Source of the DNA: Actinomycetota bacterium
GTDB taxonomy: Bacteria; Actinomycetota; Acidimicrobiia; Acidimicrobiales; JAJPHE01
DNA: 64,000 bases
Assembly: GCA_027315345.1 (NCBI GenBank)
Contig: DAHUYE010000085.1
Span: 62,001-126,000, forward strand
Direction: 5' to 3'
Shown: positions 20,453 through 25,187 of the stretch, in pieces
Layout of the letters: every line of letters starts with the position of its first letter
Numbering within the stretch: position 1 is the first letter of the stretch
Program-made: the position numbers and the translations under genes
The notes under the pieces: model-generated
Databases searched by the model: none
Told to the model about the DNA's origin: nothing
Seen by the model: only the letters and a program-made list of their open reading frames with translations

Positions 20453-21652
20453 TCAGTCCCGGTAGGGGAGCAGGACCAGGGTGCCGTTGTGACCGCCGAA
20501 GCCGAAGGAGTTGGAGAGAGCGGGGCCCGGCTCCCAGGCCCGGGGCCGGCCGACCACCAGGTCCAGATGGATGTCGGGATCGGGATGGTCGTGGCCGGCG
20601 GTGGGGGGGATGAGGCCCCGGTCGATGGTGAGGGCCAGGGCGACGGCCTCGATGGCGCCGGCCGCTCCGAGGGCGTGACCGGTGACTCCCTTGGTGGAGG
20701 TGACGGCCGGCCCGGGCGTGCCGAAGACCTTGTTGATGGCCTCGGCCTCGGCGGCGTCGTTGAGCGGGGTGGAGGTGCCATGGGCGTTGATGTGGCCCAC
20801 CTCGGAGGGATCGAGGCCGGCATCCTCCAGGGCCAGTTCCATGCAGGCCGCCGCCCCGGCCCCACCCGGCGAAGGCGCCGTGATGTGGTGCGCATCGGCA
20901 TTCGACGCCGCCCCGGCCACTATGGCGTAGATGTGCGCTCCCCGGGCCAGGGCCCGGTCCAGGTCCTCGAGCAGGAGCACCCCGGCCGCTTCGGCCATCA
21001 CGAAGCCGTCCCGCTCCGAGTCGAAGGGGCGGGAGATGCCCGAGCCGGACAGGGCCGTCATGTTTCCGAAGCCGGCCATGGCCACCGGGGTGGCGGCTGA
21101 CTCGGCTCCGCCGGCCAGCACCACGTCACAGCGGCCGGTGGCCACCAGCCGGGCGGCGTTGCCCACCGAGTGGGTGCCGGCCGCGCAGGCGGTGACGGTG
21201 GTCTCGCACGGGCCCCGCCAGCCGTTACGGATGCTGACGTTCCCGGCGGCGGCGTTGCCCATCATCATCGGGACCAGGAACGGGGACACCCGTCGGGGCC
21301 CCTTCTCATGGTGGATGAGGATCTGTTCCTCCAGGGTGGCCAGGCCGCCGACCCCGGTGCCGATGATCACCCCGGCCCGGTCCGGATCCACCTCGGGCCG
21401 CCCGGCGTCGTCCAGAGCCATCTCGGCCGCGGCCACGCCCATCTGGGCGAAGCGGTCGACCCGCCGGACGTCCTTCGGGCCGAACCAGGGGGTGGGGTCG
21501 AAGTCGGTGACGATGCGGGTCCCCTCCGGCGCCGGCCGGCACAGGCCGTCGAAGAAGGCGTCCTTACCGATGCCGGCGGTGGTAACGACCCCCAGGCCGG
21601 TGATGGCCACCGCCCGACCCTGGGTGCCTCCGGGCAGGAACGAGGTCTTCAC
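20453..21652 (-). CDS. fabF: 3-oxoacyl-ACP synthase II (FabF)
   Basis: Condensing enzyme of 399 residues with thiolase fold, elongating acyl-ACP with malonyl-ACP. The triad is intact: C156 in TVTACAAGTHS, H291 in NAHGTSTPLND and H326 in KGVTGHALGAAG. Length is normal (about 410). It is the last gene of fabD-fabH-fabG-acpP-fabF, 9 bases after the ACP gene. Catalyses the later elongation steps after FabH priming. Confidence 0.95.
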   Translation of the reverse strand: MKTSFLPGGTQGRAVAITGLGVVTTAGIGKDAFFDGLCRPAPEGTRIVTDFDPTPWFGPKDVRRVDRFAQMGVAAAEMALDDAGRPEVDPDRAGVIIGTGVGGLATLEEQILIHHEKGPRRVSPFLVPMMMGNAAAGNVSIRNGWRGPCETTVTACAAGTHSVGNAARLVATGRCDVVLAGGAESAATPVAMAGFGNMTALSGSGISRPFDSERDGFVMAEAAGVLLLEDLDRALARGAHIYAIVAGAASNADAHHITAPSPGGAGAAACMELALEDAGLDPSEVGHINAHGTSTPLNDAAEAEAINKVFGTPGPAVTSTKGVTGHALGAAGAIEAVALALTIDRGLIPPTAGHDHPDPDIHLDLVVGRPRAWEPGPALSNSFGFGGHNGTLVLLPYRD

Positions 21653-21661
21653 CTCGGGCCC

Positions 21662-21904
21662 TCAGGAAACCTTGGACAGGACCAGGTCGAAGGCCTGCCC
21701 GACCGTCTGGACCCCTTCCAGCTCGGACTCGTCCACGGTGATGTCGAAGCTCTCTTCCAGAGCCATCACCAGTTCAACCAGGTCCAAGCTGTCGGCATCG
21801 AGGTCGTCCCCGAACTTGGCCTCGATGGTGACCTGATCGGGTTGGACCTGGAGCACCTCGACGGCGCAGGTCTTGAACTTCTCGAAGGCAGTGTCTCGAT
21901 CCAC
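21662..21904 (-). CDS. acpP: acyl carrier protein
   Basis: Eighty residues, strongly acidic, with the 4'-phosphopantetheine attachment serine S39 in DLDADSLDLVELVMALEE. It carries the growing acyl chain between the enzymes encoded on both sides. The position between fabG and fabF is the common one. Start ATG 21904. Confidence 0.96.
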   Translation of the reverse strand: MDRDTAFEKFKTCAVEVLQVQPDQVTIEAKFGDDLDADSLDLVELVMALEESFDITVDESELEGVQTVGQAFDLVLSKVS

Positions 21905-21937: not shown

Positions 21938-22684
21938 TCAGTGGCCCATGGCCAGGCCGCCGTCGACGGGCAGGACGGCGCCGGTGATGTAGGAGGCGTC
22001 GTCCGAGGCCAGGAAGGCCACCACCCCGGCTATCTCCTCGGGCCGGGCCACCCGGCCCAGGGGCACCCGGTCCACCAGTTCGGCCATCTGGGCCTCGTTG
22101 AGGGCGCCCAGCATGTCGGTGTCCACCGTGCCGGGGGCGACCACGTTGACCAGGATCGAGCGGGAGGACAGCTCCCGGGCCATGGAACGGGCGAAGCCGA
22201 CCAGCCCGGCCTTGGCGGCGGCGTAGTTGGCCTGCCCGGCCTGGCCGGCCAGACCGGAAACGGAGGAGACCAGGATGACCCGGCCCTTCCGGGCCCGCAT
22301 CATCGGCCCCACCACCCGCTTGACCAGCCGGTAGACGCCGGTGAGGTTGGTCTCGATCACGTCGGACCAGGCTTCCTCGCTCATGCGCATGAGCAGGCCG
22401 TCCCGGGTCAGGCCGGCGTTGGCCACCAGCACCTCGACCGGCCCCCATTCTTTCTCGATCAGATCGAGGGCGGCCGTGACCGCCTCGGGTCGGCTCTGGT
22501 CGCAGGCGAGGTGCCAGGGCCCCTCGGCCGGGGGGCCGGAGCCGCCGGCCGGGCCGGAGCGCGACGTGTAGGCGACCCGGTCGCCTCGGGCCGCGAAGCG
22601 CTCGACGCAGGCGGCGCCTATACCCCGGGATCCGCCCGTCACCAGGACGACGCGGCCGGGACCTTCCGGGACTTCAGGGCTCAA
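21938..22684 (-). CDS. fabG: 3-oxoacyl-ACP reductase (FabG)
   Basis: Short-chain dehydrogenase reducing 3-oxoacyl-ACP with NADPH. The nucleotide-binding TGGSRGIG, the NAG motif VANAGLTRDGLLMRM, the catalytic Ser (VSSVSGLAGQAGQ) and YAAAK are all present. The start is uncertain: no ATG or GTG fits ahead of the first beta strand without entering fabH. TTG 22684 overlaps the fabH stop in a TTGA arrangement and yields 248 residues, the usual FabG size, so it is my choice. A longer frame reads into fabH and is unlikely. Confidence 0.92.
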   Translation of the reverse strand: MSPEVPEGPGRVVLVTGGSRGIGAACVERFAARGDRVAYTSRSGPAGGSGPPAEGPWHLACDQSRPEAVTAALDLIEKEWGPVEVLVANAGLTRDGLLMRMSEEAWSDVIETNLTGVYRLVKRVVGPMMRARKGRVILVSSVSGLAGQAGQANYAAAKAGLVGFARSMARELSSRSILVNVVAPGTVDTDMLGALNEAQMAELVDRVPLGRVARPEEIAGVVAFLASDDASYITGAVLPVDGGLAMGH

Positions 22685-23610
22685 GCCGCCGCGCTCCAGC
22701 GCACCAAGGCGCTGGCCCAGGTCATCCCGGCCCCGAAGCCGCACAGCAGCACCAGGTCACCGGGGGAGAGCCGGCCGGACTCGGCGGCGTCGGCCAGGGC
22801 CAGGGGGATGGATGCGGAAGAGGTGTTGCCCGTCCGGTGCAGCACCACGGCGGTGCGCTCCATGGGGATGCCGAGGCGCTGGGTGGCCGCCTCGATGATG
22901 CGGATGTTGGCCTGGTGGGGCACCAGCAGGGTCACCTCGGCGGCGGACACCCCGGCCCGCTCCAGGGTGGCCTGGGCCGAATCGACCATCGCCCGGACCG
23001 CCCGGCGGAACACCTCCCTACCGTTCATGGTGATGTACCCGTGCAGGTCGGCGTAGAGGATGGGCCGTAGGGAACCGTCGGCGCCGAGATCCCAGGCCAG
23101 CAGATCCCCCGGGCCGTCCACCGCCTCGAGCACCACCGCTCCGGCGCCGTCCCCGAACAGCACGGCCGTGCTGCGGTCCTCCCAGTCGGTGATGCGGCTG
23201 AGCCGCTCGGCTCCGATGAGCAGGACCCGGCCCACGTGGCCCCCGACCATGCCCGACGCCGCCACCAGGGAGTAGACGAAGCCCGAGCAGGCGGCGTTGA
23301 GGTCGAAGGCGCCGCAGGTGAGGCCGAGTTCGAAGGCGACGTGGGCCGAAGTGGCCGGCACCGACTGGTCGGGAGTGGTGGTGGCCAGGGCCAGTAGGTC
23401 GATGTCGGCCGGGGCCACGCCGGCCCGGGCCAGGGCCGCCCGTCCCGCCCCGATGGCCAGCTCGGCGCAGCTGTCCCCGATCCGGCGCTCCCGGATCCCT
23501 GAACGCTCGGTGATCCACTCATCGCTGGTGTCGAGGCGGGCCTCGAGATCGGCGTTGGTGATCACCTTGTCCGGCAGGGCCGTGCCCCACCCGGTGATGG
23601 TGACACCCAT
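22681..23610 (-). CDS. fabH: 3-oxoacyl-ACP synthase III (FabH)
   Basis: Primes fatty-acid synthesis by condensing an acyl-CoA with malonyl-ACP. The Cys-His-Asn triad is C108 (LNAACSGF), H232 (PHQANIRI) and N262 (RTGNTSSASIPLA). The length of 309 residues is slightly short but complete, with the N-terminal DEWITERSGIRERR signature. ATG 23610 shares one base with the fabD stop (TGATG) and the fabG start overlaps its stop, so the three are tightly coupled. Primer preference (acetyl versus branched) cannot be told from sequence. Confidence 0.95.
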   Translation of the reverse strand: MGVTITGWGTALPDKVITNADLEARLDTSDEWITERSGIRERRIGDSCAELAIGAGRAALARAGVAPADIDLLALATTTPDQSVPATSAHVAFELGLTCGAFDLNAACSGFVYSLVAASGMVGGHVGRVLLIGAERLSRITDWEDRSTAVLFGDGAGAVVLEAVDGPGDLLAWDLGADGSLRPILYADLHGYITMNGREVFRRAVRAMVDSAQATLERAGVSAAEVTLLVPHQANIRIIEAATQRLGIPMERTAVVLHRTGNTSSASIPLALADAAESGRLSPGDLVLLCGFGAGMTWASALVRWSAAA

Positions 23611-24812
23611 CAGCGGTCGGTCCCGCAGCGCAGCCAGGCCACCGGCTGGCCGTCGGTGACCCGCTCCCCGTCCACGGCCAGCAGCCCCTGCAACGTCCCG
23701 GCGAAGGGACTCCGCACTTCGCTACTCCCCACCGTCCCCAGGAGCTGGCCGACCTCGATCTCCTGGCCTGTCCGCAGAGGACCGTCAACGGGCTTGGCGT
23801 AGACGCCGGTCATGGGGCTGACCACCACCCGTTCGGACACGTACAGGTGCTCGCCCTGGTGCTGGGCCACATAGGCCTGCAGCGGGCTGGCTCCGGCCAG
23901 GCTCTCCACCAGGGTGTCGAGATCGTCCGGGCCCGACACGCTGACGGCCCGCACTTCCGGGGCGATGCGGCGCACCAGCCCGGTCAGCACCGCCCCCGGG
24001 CCGACCTCGACGAAGGCGGGGGAGTCGGGGTCGGACGCCACCAGGGCGTCGATGGTCTGGCGCCAGCGGACCGGGGAGCAGAGCTGGGCGGAGAGAAGCG
24101 AGGACCACTCATCGGCGGAGGAATGGACCCGGGCGTCGACATTGGCGGTGACCGGCACTTCCAGGGAGTGGAAGCTCACCTCGGCCAGGGCTTTGCGCAG
24201 CCGGCTGCGGGCCGGCTCCATGAGCGGGGTGTGGAAGGCCCCGCCGACGGGCAGGCCCATGACCCGCTTGGCTCCCATCTGCTTGGCGACCTCACCGGCG
24301 GCGGCCACGCCGTCAGCGGAGCCGGCTATGACCACCTGGCCCGGGGCGTTGTAGTTGGCCACCCAGGCCTCGGCCTCGGCCCGCACGCAGGCGGCCTCGA
24401 CGTCATCGTCCTCCAACCCCAGCACGGCCGCCATGGTCCCGGGGTGGTCCTCGGCGGCAGCCTGCATCGCCTCGCCCCGTTCGGTGACCAGCCGGACCCC
24501 GTCCTCGAAGGAGATGGCTCCGCTGGCCACCAGGGCCGAGTACTCACCGAGGGAATGCCCGGCGCAGGCCGAGGGGGACAGCCCCAGCCGCTCGATGGCA
24601 TCGAGCACCACCAGGCTGAGGGTGAAGGTGGCCAGCTGGGCGTTGCGGGTCTGGGTCAGCTCGTCCTTGTCGGCGTGGAGTAGGAGACGGGTCACGTCGC
24701 GCTCGGCTGCCTCCGAGGCATCGCCTACCAGCTCCCAGGAGGGGTGGTCCGCCCAGGCCTCGCCCATGCCGGGCTTCTGGGATCCCTGACCGGGGAAGGT
24801 GAAGGTCAGCAC
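23610..24812 (-). CDS. fabD: malonyl-CoA:ACP transacylase (FabD) with C-terminal biotinyl/lipoyl-like domain
   Basis: Residues 1-305 are a complete FabD that loads malonyl groups on ACP: FPGQGSQKPGMG, nucleophile S87 in GHSLGEYSAL, H194 in GAFHTPLM and the C-terminal VEVGPGAVLTGLV. Residues 325-397 are extra: two half-repeats, VVVSPMTGVYAKPV and EVRSPFAGTLQGLLAVDGER, ending GQPVAWLR, as in biotinyl/lipoyl barrels. At the hairpin where such domains carry the modified Lys (EAMKM or equivalents) the sequence reads VGSSEV, so it should not be biotinylated or lipoylated. Start GTG 24812 has GGAGG 7-8 bases upstream. Normal FabD is about 310 residues; the extension is in frame with no stop. Confidence 0.9.
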   Translation of the reverse strand: MLTFTFPGQGSQKPGMGEAWADHPSWELVGDASEAAERDVTRLLLHADKDELTQTRNAQLATFTLSLVVLDAIERLGLSPSACAGHSLGEYSALVASGAISFEDGVRLVTERGEAMQAAAEDHPGTMAAVLGLEDDDVEAACVRAEAEAWVANYNAPGQVVIAGSADGVAAAGEVAKQMGAKRVMGLPVGGAFHTPLMEPARSRLRKALAEVSFHSLEVPVTANVDARVHSSADEWSSLLSAQLCSPVRWRQTIDALVASDPDSPAFVEVGPGAVLTGLVRRIAPEVRAVSVSGPDDLDTLVESLAGASPLQAYVAQHQGEHLYVSERVVVSPMTGVYAKPVDGPLRTGQEIEVGQLLGTVGSSEVRSPFAGTLQGLLAVDGERVTDGQPVAWLRCGTDR

Positions 24813-25100: not shown

Positions 25101-25187
25101 GCCCGGATGATGGAACCGGCAGACATGATGGTCTCAAACACCATTGCCCGAGAGGGCGTGCGGGTTCGAATCCCGCTCCGGGCACCA
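25101..25187 (+). tRNA. tRNA-Leu (anticodon CAA), CCA encoded
   Basis: A class II tRNA folds by eye: acceptor GCCCGGA pairs with TCCGGGC, the anticodon stem ATGGT/ACCAT encloses loop CTCAAAC with anticodon CAA, a long variable arm TGCCCGAGAGGGCGT follows, and the T arm GCGGG-TTCGAAT-CCCGC is perfect. The CCA end is encoded at 25185-25187 after discriminator A25184. It reads UUG leucine codons, rare in this GC-rich genome. Confidence 0.95.

Follow-up and report, generated by a model that had tools for sequence, protein, structure and literature searches.

By its sequence, the FabD protein encoded in the window (the whole analysed stretch of 64,000 nucleotides, from a genome of the order Acidimicrobiales) is one member of an order-wide fusion of malonyl-CoA:ACP transacylase to a BCCP-like, unmodifiable domain. 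The same domain is also encoded by a separate gene, some 90 codons long and most often placed between fabD and fabH; both forms are referred to here as X. The predicted fold of this domain, the absence of a modifiable lysine, its conservation, its placement between fabD and fabH, and the repeated changes between the fused and the separate state were all established computationally. X is probably a conserved, previously undescribed docking part of the fatty-acid machinery, and no description of either X or the FabD-X fusion was found in the open-licence literature. The original prediction for this DNA contained neither the order-wide fusion, nor the separate gene in other families, nor the near-invariant GEHL..ER motif of the tail.

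The fused transacylase and its tail

The fabD ORF is the first in a gene run of the order fabD-fabH-fabG-acpP-fabF (Table 1), and its TGA stop codon overlaps the ATG of fabH (TGATG). As listed, the start of fabG produces a 64 nt overlap with fabH; the true start is probably later. In E. coli K-12, FabD is 309 aa long and the operon reads fabH-fabD-fabG-acpP-fabF, with no X-like gene annotated in between.

Table 1 Features of the fab region, in positions of the window
Feature	Position	Strand	Remarks
fabD ORF with C-terminal barrel	23610..24812	(-)	400 aa, GTG start, TGA stop
Malonyl-CoA:ACP transacylase part	23898..24812	(-)	residues 1-305
Variable linker	23859..23897	(-)	residues 306-318
Conserved motif QGEHLYVSER	23829..23858	(-)	residues 319-328
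BCCP-like barrel	23628..23828	(-)	residues 329-395; Pfam, AlphaFold2, Foldseek, VIA-align
Hairpin VGSSEV	23715..23732	(-)	residues 361-366; replaces the AMKM lysine site of biotinyl domains
fabH	22681..23610	(-)	PF08541 + PF08545
fabG	21938..22744	(-)	PF13561
acpP	21662..21904	(-)	PF00550
fabF	20453..21652	(-)	PF00109 + PF02801
tRNA-Leu (caa)	25101-25187	(+)	upstream of fabD; sole tRNA in the window by ARAGORN

The protein shares the whole catalytic part of the FabD family TIGR00128 (NCBIfam), whose model matches residues 1-285 with 282.8 bits, over the curated cut-off of 260.9, and its FabD is 39% identical to that of E. coli (1mla). Ser87, Arg112, and His194, which we take to be the catalytic residues, are invariant across 56 sequences. 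For the whole-chain AlphaFold2 model (mean pLDDT 92.9, pTM 0.77; alignment of 56 sequences), the 50 best Foldseek rows are FabD or other acyltransferases, mostly aligned over 280-320 columns. A single match of the 400-aa protein is present in its own genome (3.84 Mb, 97.7% complete). The span 23610-24600 first assigned to the gene does correspond to this ORF, but omits its first 70 codons.

The claim that a complete FabD is followed by a biotinyl/lipoyl-like domain is borne out by the TIGR00128 match and by the predicted fold, and both half-barrels originally quoted are present letter for letter in the translated ORF. As modelled alone with AlphaFold2 (mean pLDDT 91.6), the tail adopts the barrel-sandwich fold of Biotin_lipoyl domains; in the whole-chain model, blocks with pLDDT of 90-95 extend across residues 331-390 behind a low-confidence linker, and strands are formed by residues 327-331, 336-339, 357-361, 364-367, 372-377, and 390-395. 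BCCPs come first among the 22 Foldseek matches of the tail-only model at E <= 1e-3 (2evb, E 1.3e-5; 1bdo, E 6.8e-5). The top three VIA-align rows are BCCPs of acetyl-CoA carboxylase (ACCase): two from E. coli (4hr7, Z 11.9, rmsd 1.4, 69 aligned residues; 1bdo, Z 11.7, rmsd 2.6, 72 aligned) and Arabidopsis BCCP1 (9a87, Z 11.5, rmsd 2.1, 71 aligned). An archaeal BCCP (Z 11.0) is tied with them within 1, and efflux adaptor proteins reach a Z of about 10.

The Biotin_lipoyl HMM search that had been proposed as a check gives a divided answer: PF00364 recognizes the tail alone (E 5.3e-5; 23.4 bits, gathering cut-off 22.1), but stays under the cut-off with the whole protein (19.0 bits); the genome search returned 22.1 bits. 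Among 15 relatives, 3 pass the gathering cut-off of PF00364 and 3 have no match to it at all; a Pfam scan of ten separate or fused X proteins yielded 3 that pass PF00364 and 1 that passes HlyD_3.

The hairpin reads VGSSEV as first reported and, compared with that of the separate X proteins, lacks 4 columns. A column-by-column search of residues 311-400 in 56 orthologues found no conserved lysine. In alignment A5, which comprises 32 rows (31 separate X proteins and one from a fusion, L220), the biotinyl column contains Lys in 0/32 X proteins, as against 23/23 AccB and 8/8 other biotinyl domains; Gly occupies it in 18/32 X. Lysines elsewhere near the hairpin are found in a few X proteins (L036, L213, L217, L233, L311). 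A plain search of the 125 X domains of fab operons for the MK biotinylation motif found none; a pattern search had flagged three of them (L231, L309, L310) as possible biotinylated or lipoylated relatives, a candidate that was rejected, the match being LKN in the second half-barrel. In these alignments, neither the tail nor the fab-operon X has the modifiable lysine of biotin and lipoyl carriers.

Between the two folded parts lies a linker of variable sequence (mean pairwise identity 0.27 over residues 301-318), for which the pLDDT blocks of the whole-chain model fall to 76 and 47 (residues 301-320). It is followed by a short motif in which Gly320, Glu321, Leu323, and Glu327 occur in 56/56 sequences, and His322 and Arg328 in 55/56. 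Mean pairwise identity across the 56 sequences is higher in this motif (0.75, residues 319-329) than in FabD (0.63) or the barrel (0.58). The predicted order of the motif is low in both models (pLDDT below 50 at residues 318-323 of the whole chain; mean pLDDT 62 in the opening ten residues when the tail is modelled alone), and such a combination of conservation and low order would be expected of a peptide that becomes ordered on, or binds, a partner. The variable linker and the pTM of 0.77 suggest that the domain is tethered, not packed against FabD. Divergent fused tails of one family (L037-L039; f29) are without the usual GEHL..ER and differ in their last strand.

X as a fusion and as a separate gene

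An assembly or annotation error, with orthologues ending near residue 310, was considered as an explanation of the long FabD. In the class survey, the window protein has a match in 270/296 genomes; within its own order, 66 of the 91 genomes with a match (own genome included; a manual count from the listing) continue into the tail, which in one of them (L042) is matched no further than residue 343, owing to an insertion. A search of named-species genomes by tail patterns returned 544 stretches, 473 of which encode a relative; the best 80 of these were kept, and comprise 77 full-length fusions and 3 partial matches. Their record titles are mostly Acidimicrobiia, Acidimicrobiales, Acidimicrobiaceae, Ilumatobacteraceae, Microthrix, or plain Actinomycetota. 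With the tail present in 77/80 named loci and 66/91 genomes of the order, the error reading is rejected and the fusion is real. L134, one of these fusions, has masked bases at its end and was excluded later; the structure alignment (A4) contains 55 of the 77 and the window protein, and the tail alignment (A6) contains 42 and the window protein. Six loci with an acidimicrobial-type FabD-X (L122, L149, L166, L167, L168, L174) are titled 'Acidobacteria' or 'Bifidobacterium breve' and are possibly mislabelled metagenome bins. In the plasmid search, the ten FabD matches listed end at residue 292-307, and 22/575 records have a place covering at least 80% of the query, a figure of coverage alone.

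The clue to X came from other families, in which some tail matches ran beyond the stop codon of fabD; the separate gene is present in further families at the level of order, class, and phylum alike. A1, a profile built from tails of both forms, had matches in 83/296 genomes of the phylum sample, some of them true biotinyl domains. The A5 profile matched 241/396 genomes at E <= 1e-5, which is not a count of X, because the weaker A5 matches are ordinary carrier domains. The survey covered Actinomycetota, with loci sampled rather than collected exhaustively, and loci were annotated using the window's own fatty-acid synthesis proteins and the X profile (fabD, fabH, fabG, acpP, fabF, X). The resulting 148 loci from 144 genomes comprise 61 fusions, 54 fabD-X-fabH, 2 fabD-X (no fabH within 600 bases), 8 X-fabH (no fabD upstream), 15 fabD without X, and 8 matches elsewhere, proportions that should not be read as frequencies, since the loci were picked largely for a tail match; L031 and L247 are the same gene. 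The 125 fab-operon X domains derive from 124 genomes and 50 family codes, with fusions in 24 codes and fabD-X-fabH in 23. All 61 fusions place X after FabD; none joins it to FabH.

The less common arrangements are varied. The eight X-fabH-acpP-fabF loci (L231, L234, L239, L245, L308-L310, L314) belong to families f80, f87, and f94; all eight genomes were searched, and each has, elsewhere, a fabD-like match that stays below the family cut-off (that of G463 adjoins the X-fabH genes on the opposite strand). The 15 loci with fabD and no X represent 11 family codes: fabH follows directly in 8, is missing from the operon in 4, and the other 3 are second FabDs in genomes that also carry a fused FabD. 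The fabD-fabH order without X is found in f27, f32, f35, f43, and f46. Operons of the type fabD-fabG-acpP-fabF, with neither fabH nor X, were seen in f50 (L257) and f5 (L264-L266), and second FabDs without a tail, with no fabH found downstream, in f17 (L049, L050, and L052 in G285, G193, and G289, respectively). The 8 matches outside the counted operon types divide into 5 with biotinyl-type hairpins (L306, L312, L313, L315, L316) and 3 that are X-like. At two X-like loci, L227 and L228, no fab gene of the five was found in the stretch; the third, L243 (G563, f71), is an X-like frame of 83 codons directly before fabD, not after it.

A quick-search FabD tree with SH-aLRT support, 121 rows in size, has 6 changes of the fused label, at least 3 of them forced by starred branches. 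The order of the window, f29 (a family of the same class), f69, and f103 all contain fused rows, f103 being represented by a long branch (L226) of unsure placement; a further fusion in f86 (L305) lies outside the tree. Given that further families, in the order as well as in the class and phylum, have X as a separate gene, the fusion is likely to be the derived state. In five loci of the class (L032-L036), X lies in the frame of fabD, so that fusion would need little more than the loss of a stop codon.

A putative docking role at initiation

Of the readings considered, a putative docking or scaffold role of X at the initiation of type II fatty-acid synthesis (FAS II) is tentatively favoured. 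Docking had also been suggested in the original prediction; its description of a FabD with an unmodifiable barrel stands, while docking itself is retained only as the most natural reading. The tail would be a fused copy of X, a non-catalytic BCCP-like protein from the FAS II operon of many Actinomycetota, which may act at the initiation step as a module for docking or scaffolding, tethered to FabD through the flexible linker. Its partner might be bound through GEHL..ER together with the second half-barrel (VRSPF.G, GER, QP.AWLR), leaving the hairpin uninvolved. Biotinyl domains have their two termini on the side away from the hairpin, so that the last strand and the conserved motif probably share one face. 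The likeliest effect would be to keep FabD next to the enzyme that supplies or consumes its substrate; as partner, FabH and/or ACP stand slightly ahead of acetyl-CoA carboxylase, and in the window's order fusion would have turned this association into a permanent one.

The gene order points to the FabD/FabH step, and a tie to FabH is visible in f80, f87, and f94, where X keeps its place before fabH-acpP-fabF. Neither enzyme is a strict partner: X occurs in an operon without fabH in L261, with which a strict FabH link fails, and the X-fabH loci of the three families have no fabD upstream. X is also dispensable, since 15 of the 148 loci have fabD without it. Against docking, it must be counted that the conserved residues could serve folding alone.

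Kinship with biotinyl and lipoyl carriers, and alternative roles

Profile comparison indicates that X belongs within the biotinyl/lipoyl superfamily. In profile-profile searches against carrier-domain sets (three rows re-labelled and one dropped by hand), A5 matched AccB with a probability of 98.2% (score 73.9), other biotinyl domains with 97.5% (62.7), and lipoyl domains with 97.6% (64.1); the fused tails scored 52.5, 46.9, and 57.4, respectively. As these scores differ little, descent of X from AccB rather than from another biotinyl domain is a suggestion only.

X resembles AccB/BCCP of bacterial ACCase (TIGR00531) in the barrel fold, and the hairpin of most A5 rows is about as long as that of AccB. 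For the thumb the comparison is divided: most A5 rows have a thumb-like insertion at the AccB thumb position, about 3 residues shorter, but it is absent or short in L219, L223, L246, and L062, and variable, often shorter, in the fused tails. X differs from AccB in having no AMKM lysine and in scoring far under the TIGR00531 cut-off of 115.2: members with a match reach 15.2-16.7 bits (best E 5.8e-4 among 32), and for the tail of the window protein no match appears at E <= 1. The commonest NCBIfam match of X is NF005457/PRK07051, a BCCP-like small protein family (16/32 A5 members at E <= 0.01), but the ten members shown reach at most 26.9 bits against its cut-off of 87, and no NCBIfam family covers X at its own cut-off among the proteins scanned.

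To our knowledge, the closest described working analogy to X is provided by plant BADC proteins, none of which we know to be fused to a transacylase. These plastid ACCase subunits, tied to fatty-acid synthesis, are homologous to BCCP yet have no biotinylation motif; they bind BC and BCCP, and their effect is debated, between aid to ACCase assembly and inhibition (PMC11926652). Going by that description, X shares with them both BCCP homology and the missing motif. A role of this kind, less probable than docking at initiation and itself doubtful, would make X a biotin-less BCCP paralogue that binds ACCase (BC, the BCCP domain, or carboxyltransferase), with the effect of either assembling or restraining it; placed on FabD, X would couple the supply of malonyl-CoA to its use. 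The three ACCase BCCPs at the head of the VIA-align rows, the highest A5 score being that with AccB, the insertion at the thumb position, and the precedent of biotin-less BCCP homologues acting on ACCase (PMC11926652) are in its favour, whereas for the fused tails the lipoyl score is slightly above that for AccB.

The distribution of AccB bears on the same question. Across 119 phylum genomes, AccB is found over its cut-off in 1/27 with X versus 46/92 others, as if X accompanied the absence of AccB (Fisher p 4e-6), a contrast that ignores shared ancestry and relies on a manually compiled, non-exhaustive list of X; the 27 include four f65 genomes, and G319, with an X-like match outside a fab operon, was uncounted. 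The window's own genome has no AccB over the TIGR00531 cut-off: EAMKM carrier domains are present in two frames, one of 598 codons (its length is the basis for calling it AccA3-like) and one of 1173 codons that includes a carboxyltransferase domain as well, and there are four other carboxyltransferase matches. Two genomes of the class without X, G001 (f27) and G007 (f32), likewise have no AccB over the cut-off, so that ACCase type does not explain X; together with G365, which has both X and AccB, they weaken the idea that X is there because AccB is missing. Docking at the initiation step remains favoured over a carboxylase partner.

A structural role inside FabD, in which the barrel stabilizes or oligomerizes the enzyme or shields its active site, appears decidedly unlikely: X is fused to FabD in 61/148 loci and the tail is compact and confidently predicted, but X is separate in 54 loci and accompanies fabH, with no fabD upstream, in 8, and the variable linker and pTM of 0.77 suggest a tethered domain. 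Still less probable is a sensor or regulator whose barrel binds a small metabolite (e.g., acyl-CoA or biotin) and tunes FabD; barrel-sandwich folds do occur in many non-carrier proteins, as the weak HlyD, RnfC, and NqrA matches illustrate, but no ligand site was identified and nothing specific supports it. That X is a relic, a decayed and functionless AccB left in the operon, is scarcely credible despite the missing lysine and the shortened hairpin of the fused form, as the barrel is conserved nearly as well as the enzyme, the motif more so, and X is kept in 50 family codes.

In a bolder reading, rather unlikely as a whole, X would be an ancient, unnamed FAS II subunit of actinobacteria: a biotin-less BCCP that ties ACCase to FabD (and FabH), with malonyl-CoA handed over within the complex and the tie made covalent in the window's order. 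X would then be a bacterial counterpart of BADC at the boundary between ACCase and FAS II.

The usual picture of type II fatty-acid synthesis is one of separate soluble enzymes that meet through ACP. A conserved, non-catalytic BCCP-like partner encoded between fabD and fabH across many families of Actinomycetota, and fused to FabD more than once, suggests physical assembly at the malonyl step. X could be a FAS II scaffold or a bacterial BADC-like partner of ACCase, alternatives that are open to direct tests on small, soluble proteins.
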